DNA of 64,000 bases from an uncultured Acholeplasmatales bacterium (GTDB taxonomy: Bacteria > Bacillota_I > Bacilli_A > Acholeplasmatales > Anaeroplasmataceae), in NCBI GenBank assembly GCA_944324805.1, contig CALUXS010000004.1, positions 120,382-184,381 of the forward strand, in the 5' to 3' direction. Below, piece after piece: positions 24,209-35,818 of this stretch. The position numbers were made by a program, and so were the translations under genes. Below the pieces are notes generated by a model. That model was not told where the DNA came from. It ran no database searches and saw only the letters and a list, made by a program, of their open reading frames with translations. How positions within the stretch are numbered: the first letter of the stretch is position 1; each line of letters starts with the position of its first letter.

Positions 24209-26590
24209 CTATTTTATTCCTTCTGACTTATATACAATTTTACCTTCTTTAGAAAATATACCTTTTATTTGTTTTTCCTTTAAAAAACTAATTGCTTCTT
24301 CATCACTCATTGAAAAAATAGCTGTTGAATAAGCATCTAATCTACCACTATCAGAGCCTAAAATAGTTACACTATCTCTAATATCAGCAGGATAACCAGT
24401 TTTAGGGTTTATCAAATGGTGTACCATCATATCTCCATCATAATAATGTTGTTCACTTGGTGATGATGTACACACACCTATATTTGACTCACTAATTGTT
24501 GTTAAAACGGCTTGATAAACAACTTTAAAATAATCTGATGTAAATTCATATAATGTTGCGTTTGCTATATTAAAATAATAGTCATTACCTGCTGGATCTA
24601 CATCTAAAATGTCATCTTTTCCAACTAATATTTTAGCATTATTTGATGCTTTAACATTAGTATTTATTTCATCAATATAAATAGTTCCATCCTTTACTTC
24701 TAATTTAGGATTTTCATTAGGATATCCATATACATATGATATACCAACATTATAATCTTTAACCTCAGGCTTTTCTCCTAATAAAATATTTGAACTACCA
24801 GCATTTAATAGGTAATATTTAACATTATTTTGCTTTAAATATTCGTACGCTTTATTAGTGGCATATCCTTTGGCTACACCACCTAAATCTATATTACCAT
24901 CACCATTGATAATTACTTTATTACCTTCAATAGTAAGACTAGTATTATTAGCTTCGTTTAGATAAAACTTAACTTCCGTGTCTGTTGGTTTTAAGGCAGC
25001 TCCCATAGGGCCTTTTTCAAGATATTCCTTCCACTCATGATTCAAGTTACCCATAAAAGGATTAAAGTAACCATTAGTTTCTTCTTGCATTAATACTGAA
25101 AATTCTAATAATTCTTTTAATTCATTAGAAACTTCTAATTCTCTATTTTTATTTAGTTGTGCTAGCTCTGATGAATCATCTTGTCCAAACCATACATCAA
25201 AACCATCGTCTGAAATCTTATCATAAGTATTATAAATATTTTTTATTCCATCAAATATCTTATTTGCCTCAGTTTGACTACTTGCATACATTTGAAAACT
25301 AATGGCTGTCCCCATTGAATTAAACGCACCTGAATATAGTTTCCCATAATTTATCATAGTGTCATCGTCTTCTGACTTATATACAATTTTACCTTCTTTA
25401 GAAAATATACCTTTTATTTGTTTTTCCTTTAAAAAACTAATTGCTTCTTCATCACTCATTGAAAAAATAGCTGTTGAATAAGCATCTAATCTACCACTAT
25501 CAGAGCCTAAAATAGTTACACTATCTCTAATATCAGCAGGATAACCAGTTTTAGGGTTTATCAAATGGTGTACCATCATATCTCCATCATAATAATGTTG
25601 TTCACTTGGTGATGATGTACACACACCTATATTTGACTCACTAATTGTTGTTAAAACGGCTTGATAAACAACTTTAAAATAATCTGATGTAAATTCATAT
25701 AATGTTGCGTTTGCTATATTAAAATAATAGTCATTACCTGCTGGATCTACATCTAAAATGTCATCTTTTCCAACTAATATTTTAGCATTATTTGATGCTT
25801 TAACATTAGTATTTATTTCATCAATATAAATAGTTCCATCCTTTACTTCTAATTTAGGATTTTCATTAGGATATCCATATACATATGATATACCAACATT
25901 ATAATCTTTAACCTCAGGCTTTTCTCCTAATAAAATATTTGAACTACCAGCATTTAATAGGTAATATTTAACATTATTTTGCTTTAAATATTCGTACGCT
26001 TTATTAGTGGCATATCCTTTGGCTACACCACCTAAATCTATATTACCATCACCATTGATAATTACTTTATTACCTTCAATAGTAAGACTAGTATTATTAG
26101 CTTCGTTTAGATAAAACTTAACTTCCGTGTCTGTTGGTTTTAAGGCAGCTCCCATAGGGCCTTTTTCAAGATATTCCTTCCACTCATGATTCAAGTTACC
26201 CATAAAAGGATTAAAGTAACCATTAGTTTCTTCTTGCATTAATACTGAAAATTCTAATAATTCTTTTAATTCATTAGAAACTTCTAATTCTCTATTTTTA
26301 TTTAGTTGTGCTAGCTCTGATGAATCATCTTGTCCAAACCATACATCAAAACCATCGTCTGAAATCTTATCATAAGTATTATAAATATTTTTTATTCCAT
26401 CAAATATCTTATTTGCCTCAGTTTGACTACTTGCATACATTTGAAAACTAATGGCTGTCCCCATTGAATTAAACGCACCTGAATATAGTTTCCCATAATC
26501 AGTAGGTTTATCGCTTGGATTATTAGTATCATACATACAACCTGTTAATAAGCAAACTAAACCAAGTAAAGTAATAAATAACTTACGCAT
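24209..26590 (-). CDS. apbE: FAD:protein FMN transferase, tandemly duplicated
   Basis: This is a lipoprotein (LLTGC) of about 793 aa made of two complete ApbE domains that are identical in sequence. ApbE attaches FMN through a phosphoester bond to Thr/Ser in exported FMN-binding domains. Each copy keeps the FAD/metal motifs: NIDLGGVAKGYA and SGRLDAYSTAIF. A normal ApbE is about 330-370 aa with one domain. I start at ATG 26590 because the lipoprotein signal begins there. It follows rnfB in the operon, next to a giant multi-module RnfG that needs many flavin attachments. Confidence 0.9.
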   Translation of the reverse strand: MRKLFITLLGLVCLLTGCMYDTNNPSDKPTDYGKLYSGAFNSMGTAISFQMYASSQTEANKIFDGIKNIYNTYDKISDDGFDVWFGQDDSSELAQLNKNRELEVSNELKELLEFSVLMQEETNGYFNPFMGNLNHEWKEYLEKGPMGAALKPTDTEVKFYLNEANNTSLTIEGNKVIINGDGNIDLGGVAKGYATNKAYEYLKQNNVKYYLLNAGSSNILLGEKPEVKDYNVGISYVYGYPNENPKLEVKDGTIYIDEINTNVKASNNAKILVGKDDILDVDPAGNDYYFNIANATLYEFTSDYFKVVYQAVLTTISESNIGVCTSSPSEQHYYDGDMMVHHLINPKTGYPADIRDSVTILGSDSGRLDAYSTAIFSMSDEEAISFLKEKQIKGIFSKEGKIVYKSEDDDTMINYGKLYSGAFNSMGTAISFQMYASSQTEANKIFDGIKNIYNTYDKISDDGFDVWFGQDDSSELAQLNKNRELEVSNELKELLEFSVLMQEETNGYFNPFMGNLNHEWKEYLEKGPMGAALKPTDTEVKFYLNEANNTSLTIEGNKVIINGDGNIDLGGVAKGYATNKAYEYLKQNNVKYYLLNAGSSNILLGEKPEVKDYNVGISYVYGYPNENPKLEVKDGTIYIDEINTNVKASNNAKILVGKDDILDVDPAGNDYYFNIANATLYEFTSDYFKVVYQAVLTTISESNIGVCTSSPSEQHYYDGDMMVHHLINPKTGYPADIRDSVTILGSDSGRLDAYSTAIFSMSDEEAISFLKEKQIKGIFSKEGKIVYKSEGIK
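24221..25350 (-). repeat. apbE direct repeat, copy 1 (3' domain)
   Basis: These 1,130 bp recur at 25370-26499 at an offset of 1,149 bp (383 codons). I found no difference between the copies on reading them side by side, including third codon positions. The duplication keeps the frame. Confidence 0.92.
25370..26499 (-). repeat. apbE direct repeat, copy 2 (5' domain)
   Basis: This is the partner of 24221-25350. The 19-bp joint between the copies (25351-25369) encodes a short acidic linker (DDDTM) that reads through without a stop. Confidence 0.92.
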
Positions 26591-26615
26591 TAAATCACCT
26601 ATAAATTGATAAATA

Positions 26616-26638
26616 AAGCCGTGATGATTCACGGCCTT
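26616..26638 (-). terminator. Weak hairpin between rnfB and apbE
   Basis: A perfect 7-bp stem GCCGTGA/TCACGGC (26618-26624, 26629-26635) is followed on the minus strand by TTTATTTAT. The T-run is interrupted, so partial termination or a processing site is more likely than a full stop. It would set apbE below rnf expression. Confidence 0.6.
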
Positions 26639-26642
26639 ATTC

Positions 26643-26978
26643 TTATTTTAACTTAACTTTATTAACTGAACCATCCTCATTTGGATGTTCATCTAAATAC
26701 TTTCTAATCTTCTCTGCAACACCAGATTTTAATCCAGGTTTGCATTGAGAACAGTTTTGAGCTTCTTCATTTACGATAGCATTAGCATAACCAGCACAAC
26801 CAGGGTAACCGCAGGCACCACAGTTCGCATTTGGAAGCATTGCAGTAATATCAGCTACTCTTGTATCCTCTTTTACATATAAATACTTATCAGCAATTGC
26901 TAAACCTAAGCCTAACAAACAACCTAGTATAGCTAATACTAACACAGCCCATAATATTTTCATTAATTGCTCTGTCAT
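26643..26978 (-). CDS. rnfB: RnfB-like subunit, short form lacking ferredoxin domains
   Basis: This is a 111-aa protein with an N-terminal membrane helix and then the FeS domain CGACGYPGCAGYANAI...CSQCKPG, which binds one [4Fe-4S]. Usual RnfB proteins continue with two or more [4Fe-4S] ferredoxin domains (180-330 aa); here the frame ends after NKVKLK and no ferredoxin motif follows in any frame before apbE. The start overlaps the TGA of the preceding small gene (ATGA) and follows AAGGAGG. Position and sequence support RnfB, but electron entry must differ or need a partner. Confidence 0.85.
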   Translation of the reverse strand: MTEQLMKILWAVLVLAILGCLLGLGLAIADKYLYVKEDTRVADITAMLPNANCGACGYPGCAGYANAIVNEEAQNCSQCKPGLKSGVAEKIRKYLDEHPNEDGSVNKVKLK

Positions 26979-27759: not shown

Positions 27760-28503
27760 CTAAGCAGCCTCCTTTACAGTATTTGCTTCTGCAGCCTTTT
27801 GAGCAGCTAATTTAGCTGCTTTTTCTTTCTTTAAGGCTTCGATACGAGCCTTTTGCTCACGTACCTTCTTTTCTTCTTTATGGTTCTTCATATAAGCTAA
27901 GAATCCTAAAATTAGACCTAAAGTTAAGAAACCACCAGGAGCTTGTGTGAATAAATCAATTTTATATGTAGCAAGTGGTGTCCAAGACATCTCAGGAATA
28001 AATGTAAATACCTTACCGATTGTAAAACCACCAGTACCTAATAATTCACGGAAGAATGCCATAACTACTAATGCTAATGTAAATCCGATTGACATACCAA
28101 CAGCATCAATAAAACTAGCAAATGGACCATTCTTTGAAGCAAATGCTTCAGCACGTCCTAATATAATACAGTTAACAACGATTAGTGAAATAAATACACC
28201 AAGAGTTGTATATAACTCTGGTAAGAATGCTTGACAAAGCATTCTTACTATAGTTACAAATGTTGCAATTACAACAATATATGAAGGAATCTTTACTTGG
28301 CTTGGAATAATATTTCTAAGTAAAGAAATTAAAACGTTAGAACAAATCAAAACTAAAGTGAATAAAACACCCATACCAATCGCTGATTCAATACTTGTAG
28401 TTGTGGCTAGAGTAGGACACATAGCAAGTAGGCCAACGAATACTGGATTTTCGCTAATAATACCTTTTAAGAAATTCTTTTTTACAGACATTTTTTCTTC
28501 CAT
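27760..28503 (-). CDS. rnfE: Rnf electron transport complex subunit RnfE
   Basis: This is a 247-aa integral membrane protein paralogous to RnfA, with NPVFVGLLAMCPTLATT and VVNCIILGRAEAF. It pairs with RnfA to form the central membrane Fe-S site. The C-terminal 35 residues are a Lys/Ala-rich charged tail. Its ATG overlaps the rnfG stop (TAATG). Confidence 0.95.
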   Translation of the reverse strand: MEEKMSVKKNFLKGIISENPVFVGLLAMCPTLATTTSIESAIGMGVLFTLVLICSNVLISLLRNIIPSQVKIPSYIVVIATFVTIVRMLCQAFLPELYTTLGVFISLIVVNCIILGRAEAFASKNGPFASFIDAVGMSIGFTLALVVMAFFRELLGTGGFTIGKVFTFIPEMSWTPLATYKIDLFTQAPGGFLTLGLILGFLAYMKNHKEEKKVREQKARIEALKKEKAAKLAAQKAAEANTVKEAA

Positions 28504-31500
28504 TATTGGTTACCTCCCTCTGCTAAAGCAATCTTAATTAAATCTTTGATTAGATTAGAACCATATGTAGCGTTAGAAACTACATCTACACCATCTACTG
28601 CTGAACTATCCATACCAGCAGTAAAGTTATCTTCATAGCCATCTAACATTTGGTCTCTACCACCAGTTTGTTTTATTTCAATAACTGAAACCTTAACTAA
28701 TTTACCAGTAGCATCTACACCGACCATTAAAGTTATAGAACCAAATCTATTTGTACCTGTAACAACATAGGCTTTACCAATGTATTGATTATCTTGGAAA
28801 TTTAGAGTTCCATAAACATTATATCCAAAAATAATTTGTTCATTACTAAAATTATCAATTTTACTTGAATGTTTCATAACCATATAAGGGAAAACCTTTT
28901 TTGCAGCAGATTCGTATATTACTTCTTTTTGTAAATCTGCTACTGATTCACTCATAGCTATTTGAATACCTAAGCGAGCAACTTCAATAGTAAATGAACC
29001 ACCTGCAGTTGAATCAAGTGCATCAGAAGCAATTTGATTGAAATCACCACCAACTGTAAACTCTCCTGCTACATCGTTTAAATTAGCGTGATTATTCTCA
29101 ATATCTATTAGTTTGACAAATTTGTTGTCATTATCTAATGCAACTAACATAACATTATACCCATAAGCATTTTCTAACCTAATTACATAGGCTTTACCTA
29201 AAGAAGTTCCACCATTATTTTTAACTACAACGCCAGTTACAACATCTTTATTTACAAAACTTGTAATTAATGTTGATTTTTTAATATCATAGTCTTCAAA
29301 TGCCATTGAAATTTGATCATCATATGGAGTTAAATTCAAATGTAATTGTGCTTCTGTTAAAACCTTGATTAAAGCATTCTTAGCATCTGCATCACCAGTT
29401 AAATCATTAGCTGCTTCTAATGTAGTACCTACTTCTACTGCATTAAAGAAGCTTGTAATTGCTTCAGTTGATCCTTCAAGAACTTCATATCCGTAATAGT
29501 TTCCATCAGTATCAACACCAACCATTACCTTTAAACTATTTACACCAACAACATAAACATAGCCAAGGAATTGACCAGGAGCATATCCTGAAACACCATA
29601 TACCTTTAAGCCATATGTAATACTTGAATCAGTTATATTAGCAACATCTTGTGAACGTCCTGTTACCATGAATGGGAAGATTTCTTTTGCTGCTGCTTCA
29701 TAAATTACGCTAGAATTATCGCTTGCAGCCTTATCAATCATTGCAATCTTAATAGCTAATTTAGCTTGTTCAATTGTATAAGATGCATCAGTAATTGCAT
29801 CGTAAGAAATACTTTCAACTTTTGATAATGTTAAACCTGCAGGGAATAAACTTGATACACTTGATAGAGCACCATGATTATTTTCTAAATCTACTAGTTT
29901 AACTAATTTCTTGCCATCTTCTGATAAGACTACCATAACATAATTGTGTGAGTAAACACCTAGTAAATCAACAATATATATGTAGCCTAATTTAGTACCA
30001 TTACTATCATAAGCTTCTAATGCTGATTTGATATTTGGATTAGTTGTTTGAACTAATTTTGATTTTAATAAATTTACATTGTAGAAACCTAAACGATAAG
30101 CTTCCTCATCACTCCATACATCATATCCGCTCACTTTAGCATTATTAGCTTCATTTAATGCTAGAATAAAGCCAAGTTTTACAAGACGTGATGCATAATA
30201 TGCTGTATCAGCTTCAGCTAAACCATAAACTTGTCCTAATGTTAAACCATTAAATTGAGTTAAGTATGCTTCAACTTTACCTTGTAATGAATCTTTGAAT
30301 GCTGTTTGATCAACATAATTGATTGTTTCATAACTTAATAACTTGCTATTAACAATCTTACCTTCTGTATCAACACCAATCATAACTAAGATATTAATAT
30401 CACCATTAGTTAATTCAATTACATAAGCATAACCGATTTCACTAGCATCAACATAATTTTTAGTACCATTTACTTTTATACCATAAACAATATTTGCTTT
30501 AACATTATCACCATATGTATAACTACTATTAGTAAACTTATCTAAAACAGTAGAATGTTTCATAACCATATAAGGGAAGATTTCTTTTGCTAAAGCTTCA
30601 TAACGAACATCATCATTTATACCTGTACTTGCTTCAGATAAAGCAATCTTAATACCTAAAGCAGCAATTTCAACAGTATATGAACCACCGGCTTCAGTTC
30701 CCCAATTATTATCTACACATTCAGAAATTTTATCTAATGTTGTGCCTTCAGGGAAGAATCCAGCAACCTTATTTAAATCAGCATGATTATTTTCAACATC
30801 TATTAATTTTCCTAATGTTCCATCAGCCTTAACTGAAACTAGCATTACGTTATAACCATAAGCATTCTCTAAACGAATAATATATGCCTTGCCTAGTAAC
30901 TCACCTTTTTCATTATATAATTCATTACCTTCAATTATTTGTTTATTTGCGAAAGATGTAATTGCTTTTGATTTAGTTAAATCAACACCTTCAAATGCTT
31001 GTGCATAGAAATCATCATATGTTTTAACAGCACCTAAAGCTAACTTAATCAAGGCTTTAAATTGTTCTGAACCAAGAGTAGCACCAGTATTAGCAACACC
31101 ATCAACATCAGTAGCTGACATACCTGGAGTAAATTTATCCTCATAACCATCTAAATGACTACCAAAGCCACCAGTTTGATTATTTGCAAGCATTATTACC
31201 TTTTGTAATTTACCATTTGTTTGAACACCAACCATTAATGTTAATGTACCACCAAGGTCATTTGCTGTACTTGTTAATACAAAAGCATAACCAAGTAAAG
31301 TTCCATCTGAATTATATAACTCTTTACCTTCTGTAAATTGACTATCTAATCCTTCTAAATTGAAATCTTTACTCTTAGTTAAATCAACACCTTCAAACAT
31401 TGACTTATATTGTTCATCATAACCAAGTTGTGGTCTAGTACCAGTCACTTGTTCAAATGCATTAGCAATAATCTCCTTAGCAGTATTTGAAGCAAATGTT

Positions 31501-32774
31501 GCATCGGCAACTACATCAGCACCTAACATCTCTTCACCAGTCATTCCACTAGTAATTTTTCCACCAATGAAATCAGATAATGACTTATTTCTACCACCTG
31601 TTTGATTAGCTTCCATAATGAATACAGAACTTAATGTATCACTAGAACTAATACCTACAAACAATTTAATGTTTCCATAATTATTCTCGCCATTTGAAAC
31701 TACAACCGAACCGACTTCTGTCTCTCCATTACGTCCATTTGCATAAACTGTTAAATATTTATCAACATTCTTAACAGTTGCTTCTTTTTCTTCTGTACGT
31801 GTATATGTAGGGAACATAGTTCTAATTGCTAAAGCTTCATCAAATTTATTTTGTGCCTCTGCCATTGCAATCATAATTGCGTTTTTAACAGTATTGCATC
31901 CATATGTAGCTTTACTTACAACATCAAGATTATTAATTGCATCATAATTAGAACCTACTTCAATTGTATTGATGAATTCAGTAACACTTTCACCTCTACC
32001 ACCTGTTTGGTTAAGTTCAAATGTTTCTAAGTTCTTTAATGAATAATCAGGATTTAAAGCAATACCAAGTTTAATGTTACCATATTGATTAGTTCCATTA
32101 ACCTCATAGTAATAACCTAATAAACTATCGTTTGCATCTTTTACAGTATATCCTAGATTAATTTGTTGTGGATAAATGAAAGTATCATCTTCAACTGATT
32201 TACCCATATCAACAGTCTCACCAAAAATTCCAACTAAAGTCTTTTGGATATCAGACATAATACCAAGTTCTGCAAAAGCTGCAGCTAATAAACTTTTTAC
32301 AGTATTAGATGCATATGTAGCACCGGCATAAACAGGACGATTTGCAACATCTTCAGCAGTCATTCCTGAAGTATAGCCATCTACATATTCAGCAATCATT
32401 GTATTTCTACCACCAGTTTGGCCATTTTCTGTTATAACAACATCAATTAACTTTCCTTCAGCGTCCATACCAGCTGTTAAACTAATCTTTCCATATGTGT
32501 TTTGTCCTGTAAGTGCAAAGGCAGTTCCTAAATCTTCACCATTTGCATCCTTTACATTAACACGTTCTTTTACACTACTAGATTTAAAACCATCAACGAT
32601 GATTTCGCTATTTTCAAAACTCATATCAGGGAATATTGTTTGATATGACTCTAATTTAGCTTTAGTTTGATTTTCTTCAATAATTGGGGCAGTAATATAA
32701 TTAACTCCTGCAACACCTAAAGCACAAATTAAACAAATACAAGTTAATATCAAGGAAATCTTTAAATACTTCAT
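28503..32774 (-). CDS. rnfG: Giant RnfG with about ten FMN-binding modules
   Basis: This is a 1,423-aa protein: one N-terminal membrane anchor, then about ten FMN_bind modules of 110-145 residues. Normal RnfG is about 180-220 aa with one module and one FMN linked to Thr. Modules 1, 2, 3, 4 and 10 keep the QTGGR/F motif and an A-T acceptor: AGAT (T153), SKAT (T290), ADAT (T426), TGAT (T566), SNAT (T1403). Modules 5, 7 and 9 have ENNHA/G in place of QTGGR and no clear acceptor; 6 and 8 are also degenerate. Modules 5-6, 7-8 and 9-10 are three copies of a two-module unit. The start follows AGGAGG. Confidence 0.92.
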   Translation of the reverse strand: MKYLKISLILTCICLICALGVAGVNYITAPIIEENQTKAKLESYQTIFPDMSFENSEIIVDGFKSSSVKERVNVKDANGEDLGTAFALTGQNTYGKISLTAGMDAEGKLIDVVITENGQTGGRNTMIAEYVDGYTSGMTAEDVANRPVYAGATYASNTVKSLLAAAFAELGIMSDIQKTLVGIFGETVDMGKSVEDDTFIYPQQINLGYTVKDANDSLLGYYYEVNGTNQYGNIKLGIALNPDYSLKNLETFELNQTGGRGESVTEFINTIEVGSNYDAINNLDVVSKATYGCNTVKNAIMIAMAEAQNKFDEALAIRTMFPTYTRTEEKEATVKNVDKYLTVYANGRNGETEVGSVVVSNGENNYGNIKLFVGISSSDTLSSVFIMEANQTGGRNKSLSDFIGGKITSGMTGEEMLGADVVADATFASNTAKEIIANAFEQVTGTRPQLGYDEQYKSMFEGVDLTKSKDFNLEGLDSQFTEGKELYNSDGTLLGYAFVLTSTANDLGGTLTLMVGVQTNGKLQKVIMLANNQTGGFGSHLDGYEDKFTPGMSATDVDGVANTGATLGSEQFKALIKLALGAVKTYDDFYAQAFEGVDLTKSKAITSFANKQIIEGNELYNEKGELLGKAYIIRLENAYGYNVMLVSVKADGTLGKLIDVENNHADLNKVAGFFPEGTTLDKISECVDNNWGTEAGGSYTVEIAALGIKIALSEASTGINDDVRYEALAKEIFPYMVMKHSTVLDKFTNSSYTYGDNVKANIVYGIKVNGTKNYVDASEIGYAYVIELTNGDINILVMIGVDTEGKIVNSKLLSYETINYVDQTAFKDSLQGKVEAYLTQFNGLTLGQVYGLAEADTAYYASRLVKLGFILALNEANNAKVSGYDVWSDEEAYRLGFYNVNLLKSKLVQTTNPNIKSALEAYDSNGTKLGYIYIVDLLGVYSHNYVMVVLSEDGKKLVKLVDLENNHGALSSVSSLFPAGLTLSKVESISYDAITDASYTIEQAKLAIKIAMIDKAASDNSSVIYEAAAKEIFPFMVTGRSQDVANITDSSITYGLKVYGVSGYAPGQFLGYVYVVGVNSLKVMVGVDTDGNYYGYEVLEGSTEAITSFFNAVEVGTTLEAANDLTGDADAKNALIKVLTEAQLHLNLTPYDDQISMAFEDYDIKKSTLITSFVNKDVVTGVVVKNNGGTSLGKAYVIRLENAYGYNVMLVALDNDNKFVKLIDIENNHANLNDVAGEFTVGGDFNQIASDALDSTAGGSFTIEVARLGIQIAMSESVADLQKEVIYESAAKKVFPYMVMKHSSKIDNFSNEQIIFGYNVYGTLNFQDNQYIGKAYVVTGTNRFGSITLMVGVDATGKLVKVSVIEIKQTGGRDQMLDGYEDNFTAGMDSSAVDGVDVVSNATYGSNLIKDLIKIALAEGGNQ

Positions 32775-32777
32775 ATA

Positions 32778-33947
32778 TTAAAAGCCTCCTAAAACATAGT
32801 TTGTAACTGCACTTACATCTCCATTTACAGAGAAGCAAACAATTAAACAAACAATAACTAAAGCAACAACAACACCAACGATTTGTGGCCAAGTATATGT
32901 ATTCTTCTTACCTTGCATAAAGTAATCTAATGCTGAAGCAATCATATTAGCAAGTAAAATAGCAAAAGCAACTCCTTCAGGATATGCACCAATGAAGCGG
33001 ATCATTACAGCTAATAAACCAGCAAATGTACCATATGCAACACGACCAAATTTAGTTACAGGGCTTGTTACAGGGTCAGTAATCATAAATACCGCACCAA
33101 ATAATAAACCACCTGCCATTGTTTGGTATAATGTGAAGTCTAATACATTAGTTCCATTTTTAGAATTTAAAACAAAACCAACACAAACTACAACTATAAC
33201 AAAGCTTAAAATCATTGATAAGCTTGCTCTTAAATCAATTGCTCTTCTAGCTGCTAGATAAACAAAAGCAACTAAAATTAATAATGTACAAACCTCTCCC
33301 ATAGCTCCTGGAACTTGACCAAAGAATAAATCTTGGAGACTATAAGTTGTAATAGCATTAGCAAAGTTACCTAAATTTCCTGCCATTTGACCAAGTGGAG
33401 TTCCACCAGCTATTACATCATTTTGGATTAATCCTGGAAAAATTTGGCTAGTTTGATTAATGATTGCAGCATCTAGTTGACTAGAGAAGCAAAGCTTAAC
33501 AAAAATAAAACCAACAGCAGCAGGATTAAAAATATTATTTCCATAAGGACCAAATACTAACTTACCAAATAAAATACCAACAACGGCACCAACAATTACA
33601 ACATATACTGGTGTTGCTGCAGGAAGCAACAATGAATAAATAAGTGCTGATATAATAGGACAAGTTATATTATTAATTGTAAATCCTTCTAATACTCTTT
33701 TGAATCCTGTCTTAGAAAACAATTCTTTTCTAGGCATTCCATCAGGCCATTTGATTAAAGCAACAGCAACAAACTCAACAATAAGCATTGTAAGTACTGA
33801 AGTTAAAATCACATAAATTCCATTCCATCCATTTTGAATTGTAGCAAATAAAACAATAGGTACTAATGCAATAATTACATCAAGCATCATTCGTTTTACA
33901 GATACATTCTTACGGATATAAGGACTTGTATGTCTTACAAAATTCAT
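32778..33947 (-). CDS. rnfD: Rnf electron transport complex subunit RnfD
   Basis: This is a 389-aa membrane protein of the NqrB/RnfD family. It starts with the typical HTSPYIR and has NNIFNPAAVG. The likely covalent FMN site is the Thr of AGGTPLGQ (about T183), equivalent to the SGATPLG site of NqrB. The MITDPVTSP loop is present. The start follows AGGGAGG. ApbE would flavinylate both RnfD and RnfG. Confidence 0.95.
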   Translation of the reverse strand: MNFVRHTSPYIRKNVSVKRMMLDVIIALVPIVLFATIQNGWNGIYVILTSVLTMLIVEFVAVALIKWPDGMPRKELFSKTGFKRVLEGFTINNITCPIISALIYSLLLPAATPVYVVIVGAVVGILFGKLVFGPYGNNIFNPAAVGFIFVKLCFSSQLDAAIINQTSQIFPGLIQNDVIAGGTPLGQMAGNLGNFANAITTYSLQDLFFGQVPGAMGEVCTLLILVAFVYLAARRAIDLRASLSMILSFVIVVVCVGFVLNSKNGTNVLDFTLYQTMAGGLLFGAVFMITDPVTSPVTKFGRVAYGTFAGLLAVMIRFIGAYPEGVAFAILLANMIASALDYFMQGKKNTYTWPQIVGVVVALVIVCLIVCFSVNGDVSAVTNYVLGGF

Positions 33948-33962
33948 TTTACTAATCCTCCC

Positions 33963-35258
33963 TTATTTAGCTAACCTTTTGCCTTGACGCATATAGTCAG
34001 TTAAATTAATCTTAGAGGTACATGTATATCCACATAAACCACATTCTATACATTCATCAACTCTTAATTTCTTAAGAGCGTCAACATCCTTGTTTTTAGT
34101 AGCATTCATAACTAAAACAGGTTGTAAACCACAAGGACAAGAATAAACACACGAAGCACAACGGATACATGGTTCCTCTTTAATCTTCTTATCTTTTAAA
34201 ACAATAACAGATGTACATGTCTTTGTACATACAGCATCATCTCTAACAAGGTTTGCACCCATCATAGGACCACCCATAATTAGAACCTTGTCACAATCTC
34301 CATCATAACCACCACATAGTTCTACAAGCTCAACAAGTGGAGTACCAATTCTAATTCTAATGTTAGATGGATATTTTATTCCATCACCTGTCAAAGTAAA
34401 GTTTCTTTCTATTACAGGAGTGTTAAACTTTACGGCACGGTAAATTCCAACAACTGTAGAAACGTTAAAGTTAACAATTCCATACTTAGATGGTAATTCT
34501 CCATGTTTTACATGAATACCTAGGGCAGTTTTTATCATTTCAACTTCCCATCCTTGAGGGAAATAGTTACCAACTCTCTTAATTTCAACAGGTAACTCAG
34601 GATATTTCTTAATTACTGCACTTAAAACTTCATATAAATCATCATATTTTTTCTTAATACAAATATATGCTTTCTTAGCAGTAAAAGCTTGTAAGCAATA
34701 TTTTATACCTTGCATAATTAATTCAGGATATTCCATAATAATACGATGATCTGTTGTTAGGTAAGGTTCACATTCAATACCATTAATCATAATAGTATCA
34801 ATTGGATCTTTAGTTTGGAACTTAACATATGTAGGGAATGAACTACCACCAAGTCCGACAACAGAATTCTCACGAATTCTTTCAATAAAATCCTCTCTTG
34901 TATACTTGGCTATTTCTTCTTCACTACGCTCATAGATACTTTCTTCTCTTTCATCCTTAAAATCATTTTCAATTTCAATGAACTCAAGAAGCTTACCTGT
35001 ACGATGGAATTTCTTAACAATACCTGTTACAGTACCACTAACAGTTGAATGCATATTTTGTTCAAAATATCCACCATATCTTTTTCCTAGAACTGTACCT
35101 ATCTTAACTTTATCTCCTGTTTTTACATATACATCAGCTTTAGCACATCTAGCATTTGTAATTGATACATAAACATGCTTTGGTTTAGTATATCTAATTG
35201 TTGGAAGAGATTTAGTAAGATTAAGTACATCCGCTATTTCTCTTGTCTTGGCAATCAC
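33963..35258 (-). CDS. rnfC: Rnf electron transport complex subunit RnfC
   Basis: This is a 431-aa peripheral subunit with an NADH/FMN-binding core (GLGGSSFPTYVKF, NGIECEPYLTTD, GGPMMGAN). It has two [4Fe-4S] motifs near the C-terminus: CIRCASCVYSCP and CIECGLCGYTC. It starts at a GTG that overlaps the ANTAR gene stop (GTGA), behind AAGGGTG, so the two are translationally coupled. It would exchange electrons with NAD(H). Confidence 0.95.
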   Translation of the reverse strand: MIAKTREIADVLNLTKSLPTIRYTKPKHVYVSITNARCAKADVYVKTGDKVKIGTVLGKRYGGYFEQNMHSTVSGTVTGIVKKFHRTGKLLEFIEIENDFKDEREESIYERSEEEIAKYTREDFIERIRENSVVGLGGSSFPTYVKFQTKDPIDTIMINGIECEPYLTTDHRIIMEYPELIMQGIKYCLQAFTAKKAYICIKKKYDDLYEVLSAVIKKYPELPVEIKRVGNYFPQGWEVEMIKTALGIHVKHGELPSKYGIVNFNVSTVVGIYRAVKFNTPVIERNFTLTGDGIKYPSNIRIRIGTPLVELVELCGGYDGDCDKVLIMGGPMMGANLVRDDAVCTKTCTSVIVLKDKKIKEEPCIRCASCVYSCPCGLQPVLVMNATKNKDVDALKKLRVDECIECGLCGYTCTSKINLTDYMRQGKRLAK

Positions 35259-35818
35259 AATATCACCCTTTCCTTAATCATTCTTGCCACTTGACCCTTA
35301 GTTAATCTTAATTTCATAGCATTATCAATAATAAACTTGTGAGCATCGGCCTCAGACATTTGTTTTTCTTTCATTAAGAGTAATTTAGCCTGATTGACAT
35401 CTTTATCGTCTTGAATTTTTGTTTCTAATTGTTGGACTTTTCTTTCCATGCCATAAAGCTTATCCTTAATTTTAAACGCATAATTCAAGATATCCGTTAA
35501 ACCAACTAAATTATCTTCCCTCATTAATATAAAATTTGGTTCGTTTAACACATTGTAAAGAAGACCATACTCTAAGGTTTTACAAATAAAAACCACAAAA
35601 TATCTCTTTGAAGCCACAAGTCTATCTAGTATTTGGCTCCTACCTTGGATGAGACTTTGGGTTATAATTACCACATCAACTTGCTTACCATATAGTTTAA
35701 CTAAGGCCTCTTCTATCGGTAAGTATACTGCTTCAAGTTGATAGTCTTCACCATTAAAAAGCGCATTAATCTTATATTGTAAATTATTGTTATTACTAAG
35801 CAAGATTACCTGACGCAT
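35255..35818 (-). CDS. ANTAR-domain RNA-binding antiterminator with degenerate receiver
   Basis: This is a 187-aa protein. Residues 1-115 have a receiver-like fold but lack the acidic pocket (SNNNN where DD is expected) and the phospho-Asp (VDVVIITQS), so it is unlikely to be phosphorylated normally. A coiled coil follows, then the ANTAR domain (about 130-187) with NQAKLLLMKEKQMSEADAH and IIDNAMKLRLTKGQVA. ANTAR proteins (AmiR, NasR, EutV, NitR) bind paired hexaloop hairpins and prevent termination, often for nitrogen genes. It leads the rnf operon, and a fitting target lies before glnA in this window. Confidence 0.88.
   Translation of the reverse strand: MRQVILLSNNNNLQYKINALFNGEDYQLEAVYLPIEEALVKLYGKQVDVVIITQSLIQGRSQILDRLVASKRYFVVFICKTLEYGLLYNVLNEPNFILMREDNLVGLTDILNYAFKIKDKLYGMERKVQQLETKIQDDKDVNQAKLLLMKEKQMSEADAHKFIIDNAMKLRLTKGQVARMIKERVIL

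Follow-up and report, generated by a model that had tools for sequence, protein, structure and literature searches.

The 64,000-nucleotide stretch of DNA analyzed here (hereafter the window) comes from an uncultured bacterium of the Acholeplasmatales (family Anaeroplasmataceae; assembly GCA_944324805.1, contig CALUXS010000004.1, positions 120,382 to 184,381). It carries an rnf operon in which the gene at the RnfG position encodes a giant protein of 1423 amino acids (aa). Sequence analysis established that this protein consists of a membrane anchor followed by ten modules in tandem, that its gene lies in the rnf operon by the gene of the flavin transferase ApbE, that it is conserved in the genus, and that its modules fall into two main classes. 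We propose, with about even confidence, that the ten outer domains form a surface arm of covalently bound flavin mononucleotides (FMNs), along which electrons from Rnf would pass from module 1 outward to an acceptor beyond the membrane.

Modules and predicted flavin sites

The reading frame of the giant RnfG was uninterrupted along all 1423 aa, and an N-terminal membrane anchor could be read from its sequence. The Pfam model FMN_bind (PF04205) matched the protein with 94.2 bits against a cut-off of 22, in five significant stretches. This number exceeds both the single domain above which a protein is counted as multi-flavinylated (PMC8238504) and the limit of three that the original prediction had set. 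A hand-seeded module alignment with iterated hidden Markov models (HMMs) resolved ten modules; the predicted architecture of an anchor and about ten modules was thus borne out. The HMM seeds were taken from the giant RnfG itself, and independent support comes from a comparison of the class B and class A module profiles (probability 98.9, E 3.9e-17) and from an AlphaFold model of modules 5-10 (mean predicted local distance difference test score 83.7), in which the segments between the modules are mostly folded. With the NCBIfam model TIGR01947, one domain in length, the score was 65.5 bits (best stretch 8-122), below the curated 102. We therefore call the protein an RnfG-position subunit rather than a member of TIGR01947. 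No FMN_bind match was found elsewhere in the genome, which is 96% complete. The gene and its modules are as follows.

28503..32774, minus strand: giant RnfG-position gene, 1423 aa, N-terminal anchor and ten ectodomain copies
32262..32531, minus strand: module 1 (class A), aa 82-171, acceptor Thr153; anchor and module 1 equal a whole ordinary RnfG
31851..32120, minus strand: module 2 (class A), aa 219-308, Thr290
31440..31715, minus strand: module 3 (class A), aa 354-445, Thr426
31023..31295, minus strand: module 4 (class A), aa 494-584, Thr566; orthologues often have a degenerate slot here
30627..30896, minus strand: module 5 (class B), aa 627-716, ENNH with His664, Ser698 in the acceptor column
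30144..30437, minus strand: module 6 (class C), aa 780-877, Tyr859 in the acceptor column; mostly Ser in orthologues
29727..29990, minus strand: module 7 (class B), aa 929-1016, His967, Ser998
29343..29567, minus strand: module 8 (class C, truncated), aa 1070-1144, Leu1125 in the acceptor column
28941..29201, minus strand: module 9 (class B), aa 1192-1278, His1229, Ser1260; modelled alone
28512..28781, minus strand: module 10 (class A), aa 1332-1421, Thr1403

Modules 5-10 are a two-module unit repeated three times, as had been predicted. Modules of the same parity share 31-53% identity (5/9 53, 5/7 38, 6/10 38, 6/8 35, 7/9 31 and 8/10 31), whereas the nine odd-even pairs share 15-27%. Module 8 is the weakest (75 aa in the manual alignment, 18.8 bits in the final HMM round), and the iterated HMMs did not detect it in most orthologues.

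In class A (modules 1-4 and 10), Thr stands in a GAT-like motif and is accompanied by a Q-T loop; each of the five predicted Thr acceptors (Thr153, Thr290, Thr426, Thr566 and Thr1403) was found in the motif. The acceptor in 140 unique class A modules, drawn from 51 proteins searched with ordinary RnfGs included, was Thr in 121, Ser in 8, a gap in 6, Asn in 3 and Glu in 2, where the partial modules of loci L070 and L041, without a readable acceptor, are counted as misses. At slot 1 it was Thr in all 37 proteins (P0001-P0037). Class B comprises modules 5, 7 and 9, the three with ENNH, and has a Ser acceptor and an invariant loop His. Its 83 unique modules showed Ser in 74 and Thr in 9, with no loss (38 and 9, respectively, in the 47 modules left at 90% redundancy). 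The loop His was present in 83/83, and the same position is Gln in 125/140 class A modules.

These residues were compared with the flavin contacts of the tandem FMN-binding proteins SaFMN3 and CbFMN4, the positions being assigned by sequence alignment and not from coordinates. Tyr14 of SaFMN3 stacks on the flavin and Thr74 bonds its N3, while Thr37 of CbFMN4 bonds N5 (PMC10339131). Class B has Tyr (80) or Trp (3) at the position aligned with Tyr14, and Thr (71) or Ser (12) two residues after the acceptor, aligned with Thr74. The Gln/His position immediately precedes the residue aligned with Thr37. Since the acceptor, the stacking aromatic, the +2 hydroxyl and the His are all conserved, the three ENNH modules look, on sequence grounds, like flavin sites with an altered N5 environment.

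The original prediction held that the five modules other than those with Thr had lost the acceptor and could serve as spacers. The loss is real in modules 6 and 8, which have no motif-fitting hydroxyl in the acceptor column (Tyr859 and Leu1125). Modules 5, 7 and 9 instead carry Ser698, Ser998 and Ser1260 and belong to a conserved class with Ser or Thr in 83/83, Tyr or Trp at the stacking position and the invariant His. A plain-spacer role was rejected for these three on the conservation of acceptor, stacking residue and His.

A related explanation is that class B is nevertheless flavin-free. The Ser would then cap the last helix, the His would serve structure or the binding of a ligand or surface, and the outer half would be a spacer or an adhesive stalk. 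We consider this unlikely, and several observations speak for it and against our proposal. The acceptor lies at a helix start, where Ser and Thr are common, and the class B Ser could thus be a helix cap. The residues preceding it are relaxed (AGGS, TDAS, AHGS, AHSS): the -1 position is Ala in 32, Ser in 28 and Gly in 23 of 83, and -2 is mainly Asp (30), His (26) or Gly (25). Furthermore, the five Pfam stretches exclude modules 5-9. The Thr-FMN-type site of RnfD also has Gly at -1 in all eight genomes of the genus, as AGGT in seven; in the window it is AGGT, and modules 5 and 9 share this -1 Gly. This fact suggests that at least a -1 Gly is natural here. The flavin-free explanation has to account for the loss of the hydroxyl in 12 of 36 class C modules (Ser 23, Thr 1, other or gap 12, one of them a gap) versus 0/83 in class B (Fisher p 1.3e-7, kinship ignored), and for the stacking aromatic and +2 hydroxyl, which are also invariant in class B. 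A sequence search of the PDB with class B, taken as far as E 10, found no chain that binds FMN, the top match being a HemAT globin (E 0.88), and Foldseek with the model of module 9 gave no match at E <= 0.001.

ApbE also uses Ser, and changing Thr to Ser costs 10-55%, according to a review (PMC12052999). Since Ser is thus reported as a less efficient acceptor, ApbE would load FMN on the five Thr and probably also on the three Ser. The A and B sites would then differ in flavin environment, and the outer half would mix site types. A bolder version, possible but doubtful in our judgment, is that class B is a second, previously undescribed kind of ApbE-loaded site, with Ser-linked FMN and the invariant His by the N5 edge, interleaved with the Thr/Gln-Thr sites. 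In that case the gene would encode a flavin polymer that alternates between two potentials and reaches tens of nanometres out from a wall-less cell. Rnf would thereby become an outward electron exporter, and recombination between modules would tune the length of the array.

Spread and growth of the array

The search for long RnfGs in other rnf loci was successful. Open frames of 1363-1565 aa were found in 8/8 genomes of the genus, and the protein database held at least 36 homologues of 853-1988 aa, 35 of them with 34-47% identity over 88-100% of the query. As the homologue search scored the 7991 candidates sharing most words, 36 is a lower bound. These data refute the idea of an assembly or sequencing artefact that joined separate genes, a possibility raised with the original prediction and now practically negligible. 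Two facts had lent it some weight: the adjoining ApbE is duplicated in tandem without a difference over 1129 nucleotides (nt), and homologue P0002 is identical to P0001 at 853/853 aligned residues with 570 aa missing internally.

A search of 55 genomes of the family, the eight of the genus included, gave a match in 31. Of the 23 matching genomes outside the genus, 22 had frames of 99-233 aa (183-233 in 19 of them) and one, G054, a frame of 611 aa; no match was found in the other 24 of the 47 non-genus genomes. Operons were inspected for six of the 22 short-frame genomes, and five were rnf operons; a 147-aa frame (genome G015, locus L036) had no rnf neighbours. Class B matches above 100 bits occurred only in the eight genomes of the genus among 160 of the order, with weak matches, all below 40 bits, in 16 of the other 152.

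A module tree was built from ten giants, G054 and eight ordinary RnfGs; it rests on short sequences and one method. Class B formed a single clade with support 1.00. Slots 1, 2, 3 and 7 clustered by slot across species, whereas slots 5 and 8 grouped within genomes or close pairs. Between six and twelve modules were detected in the giants, the six-module case being a single sequence that may reflect an assembly fault. P0027 and P0028 are one 143-aa unit shorter than P0018, at 99.5-99.8% identity.

Such observations raise the possibility of mostly neutral repeat growth, in which recombination lengthens RnfG to no new function and module 1 alone matters. The unit loss between near-identical sequences, the clustering of slots 5 and 8 by genome or close pair and the degenerate look of class C would all fit. 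Slots 1, 2, 3 and 7, however, retain their identity across species, and the acceptors and the class B signature are kept even though 35 of the at least 36 homologues are only 34-47% identical. We therefore regard neutral growth as quite improbable.

The RnfG of G054 (locus L035, 2601-4433, about 610 aa) has four modules by HMMs and scores 26.9 bits with Pfam alone. In the tree its modules pair 2 with 4 (support 1.00) and 1 with 3 (0.86), away from the slots of the giants. This four-module RnfG, from another genus of the family, is likely, judging by the tree, to be a separate expansion.

Operon and cell envelope

The gene order is rnfC-D-G-E-A-B, with the giant gene between rnfD and rnfE, and the same order was found in 7/7 other loci of the genus. 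The neighbours in the window are as follows.

33963..35258, minus strand: rnfC, TIGR01945 356 bits, over cut-off
32778..33947, minus strand: rnfD, NCBIfam 200.0 versus 207.05, just under cut-off
27760..28503, minus strand: rnfE, TIGR01948 225.6 bits
27180..27758, minus strand: rnfA, TIGR01943 245.9 bits
26975..27178, minus strand: 67-aa membrane open reading frame with a single transmembrane segment and four conserved Cys, between rnfA and rnfB
26643..26978, minus strand: short rnfB, 111 aa, transmembrane segment and FeS domain, no Fer4
24209..26632, minus strand: ApbE flavin transferase, two fused copies

RnfC, RnfD, RnfE and RnfA are all present (Pfam over cut-off for the four, NCBIfam for C, E and A). 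The surroundings had been described as an otherwise normal rnf operon, a description that fails at three points: RnfB lacks ferredoxin domains, there is an additional four-Cys reading frame and ApbE is doubled. In the canonical ferredoxin:NAD Rnf, RnfB carries ferredoxin-type 4Fe-4S domains after its FeS domain; here only FeS exceeded the Pfam cut-off, so that this RnfB is not of the canonical ferredoxin type. RnfB is 98-127 aa in 18/18 loci of relatives where rnfB was found, in two families. Since these include loci with an ordinary RnfG, the short RnfB is a trait of the wider group, unlinked to the giant RnfG. By motif search, the four-Cys membrane protein adjoins rnfB in 17/17 loci of the family and close relatives (a count that takes in the window and two loci, L067 and L069, placed only to order), and in 0/2 loci of another family. 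It matched no Pfam family at E <= 0.01 and is a candidate extra Rnf subunit. ApbE is single-copy in the 5/5 genus loci whose stretch covers apbE, and its doubling in the window is either a recent duplication or an assembly fault. An ANTAR-domain regulator (35255-35818, minus strand) lies directly upstream of rnfC, with a homologue there in 7/7 other genus loci; its position suggests antitermination control of the rnf operon.

As for the envelope, the family is described as peptidoglycan-deficient, yet some wall genes occur in 40-60% of its genomes (PMC10868615). Transpeptidase was found neither in the genome of the window (0/1) nor in the genomes of the genus (0/8); the control gave a signal in 10/14. 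A Mur_ligase_M search gave one match of 411 aa, taken from its size as a putative folylpolyglutamate synthase. Because no transpeptidase was found in 8/8 genomes of the genus, there is probably no wall to cross, and a peptidoglycan wall for the arm to span was rejected as an explanation. The original prediction of a relay through the envelope is supported in its proposed outward transfer, which Meheust et al. also suggest for multi-flavinylated RnfGs, and weakened in its wall crossing. It is more likely that the arm projects outward.

Under our proposal, module 1 would do the ordinary RnfG job for the Rnf core, because no other RnfG was found, and the nine other modules would be an extension. 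Electrons would exit the Rnf core via the outer modules to an outside acceptor. We conjecture that the donor is NADH via RnfC and RnfD, given an RnfB without ferredoxin domains.

No terminal electron acceptor was found, and the genome showed neither a partner FMN_bind protein nor, among the hits pursued, an extracytosolic FAD_binding_2 reductase. An extracellular partner resembling fumarate reductase was rejected, the sole full-length FAD_binding_2 match (there are eight shorter ones besides) resembling NadB and lying beside a putative NadA. It is worth noting that the missing partner suits another interpretation, a redox buffer or oxygen sink at the cell surface. In this view, flavins would store Rnf electrons and give them up to O2 and further oxidants, protecting the anaerobe, and no long wire would be needed. 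Fully reduced SaFMN3 readily reacts with O2 (PMC10339131), and the difference in module number between near-identical sequences (the 143-aa unit) suits a dose effect. Such a buffer does not explain why two site classes are conserved and mostly stay in fixed slots, and we hold it to be rather unlikely.

Comparison with known systems

SaFMN3 and CbFMN4 share with the giant RnfG the tandem FMN-binding domains, the ApbE-loaded Thr and the fold (PMC10339131). Their domains are more than 80% alike, their linkers are unstructured and SaFMN3 has one potential (PMC10339131), whereas the units of the giant RnfG are 15-53% identical, the linkers of modules 5-10 are mostly predicted to be folded and there is a Ser/His class. 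An ordinary RnfG of the family, that of Anaeroplasma bactoclasticum ATCC 27112 (L070, 193 aa), resembles it in operon position, short RnfB and four-Cys small protein, and differs in having one module.

Enlarged FMN_bind subunits at the NqrC/RnfG position, between B/D-type and D/E-type membrane subunits, are also found in another family of the order:

L075, 6495-8465: NqrC/RnfG-like subunit, 656 aa
L077, 5552-8095: NqrC/RnfG-like subunit, 847 aa

Their operons are Nqr-like, with an NqrF-type protein in L075, and no class B match was found in that family at E <= 0.001. In locus L072 (5192-8035, plus strand), four FMN_bind stretches are joined to an NqrB/RnfD-type membrane domain in a single 947-aa protein, next to an Nqr-like operon and RnfE/RnfA-like genes.

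If the sites are loaded, the giant RnfGs would belong to a natural series, from the one- and four-module RnfGs of sister genera to giants of six to twelve modules, in which the two site classes mostly hold to fixed slots. Such a series would make the role of multi-flavinylated proteins testable by module removal. Moreover, cells in which no wall is detectable would then bear a long flavin array whose length wall crossing cannot explain.

In 2021, Meheust et al. described 2081 multi-flavinylated proteins, in which as many as 13 sites were predicted, among them a number of multi-flavinylated RnfGs, some of Christensenellales with multi-heme domains, and proposed a bifurcated outward electron transfer for these RnfGs (PMC8238504). 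The likeness lies in the several FMN-binding domains, the rnf cluster and the proposed outward side path. We found no account in that paper of the Ser/His class, the order of modules and slots, the limitation to a single genus or the unit changes, and its supplement may list the genus (PMC8238504). Titles and abstracts in our literature search included none on the RnfG of this genus or on Ser/His modules. The multi-flavinylated RnfG as a kind is therefore already known, and the genus-specific Ser/His class is the new feature.
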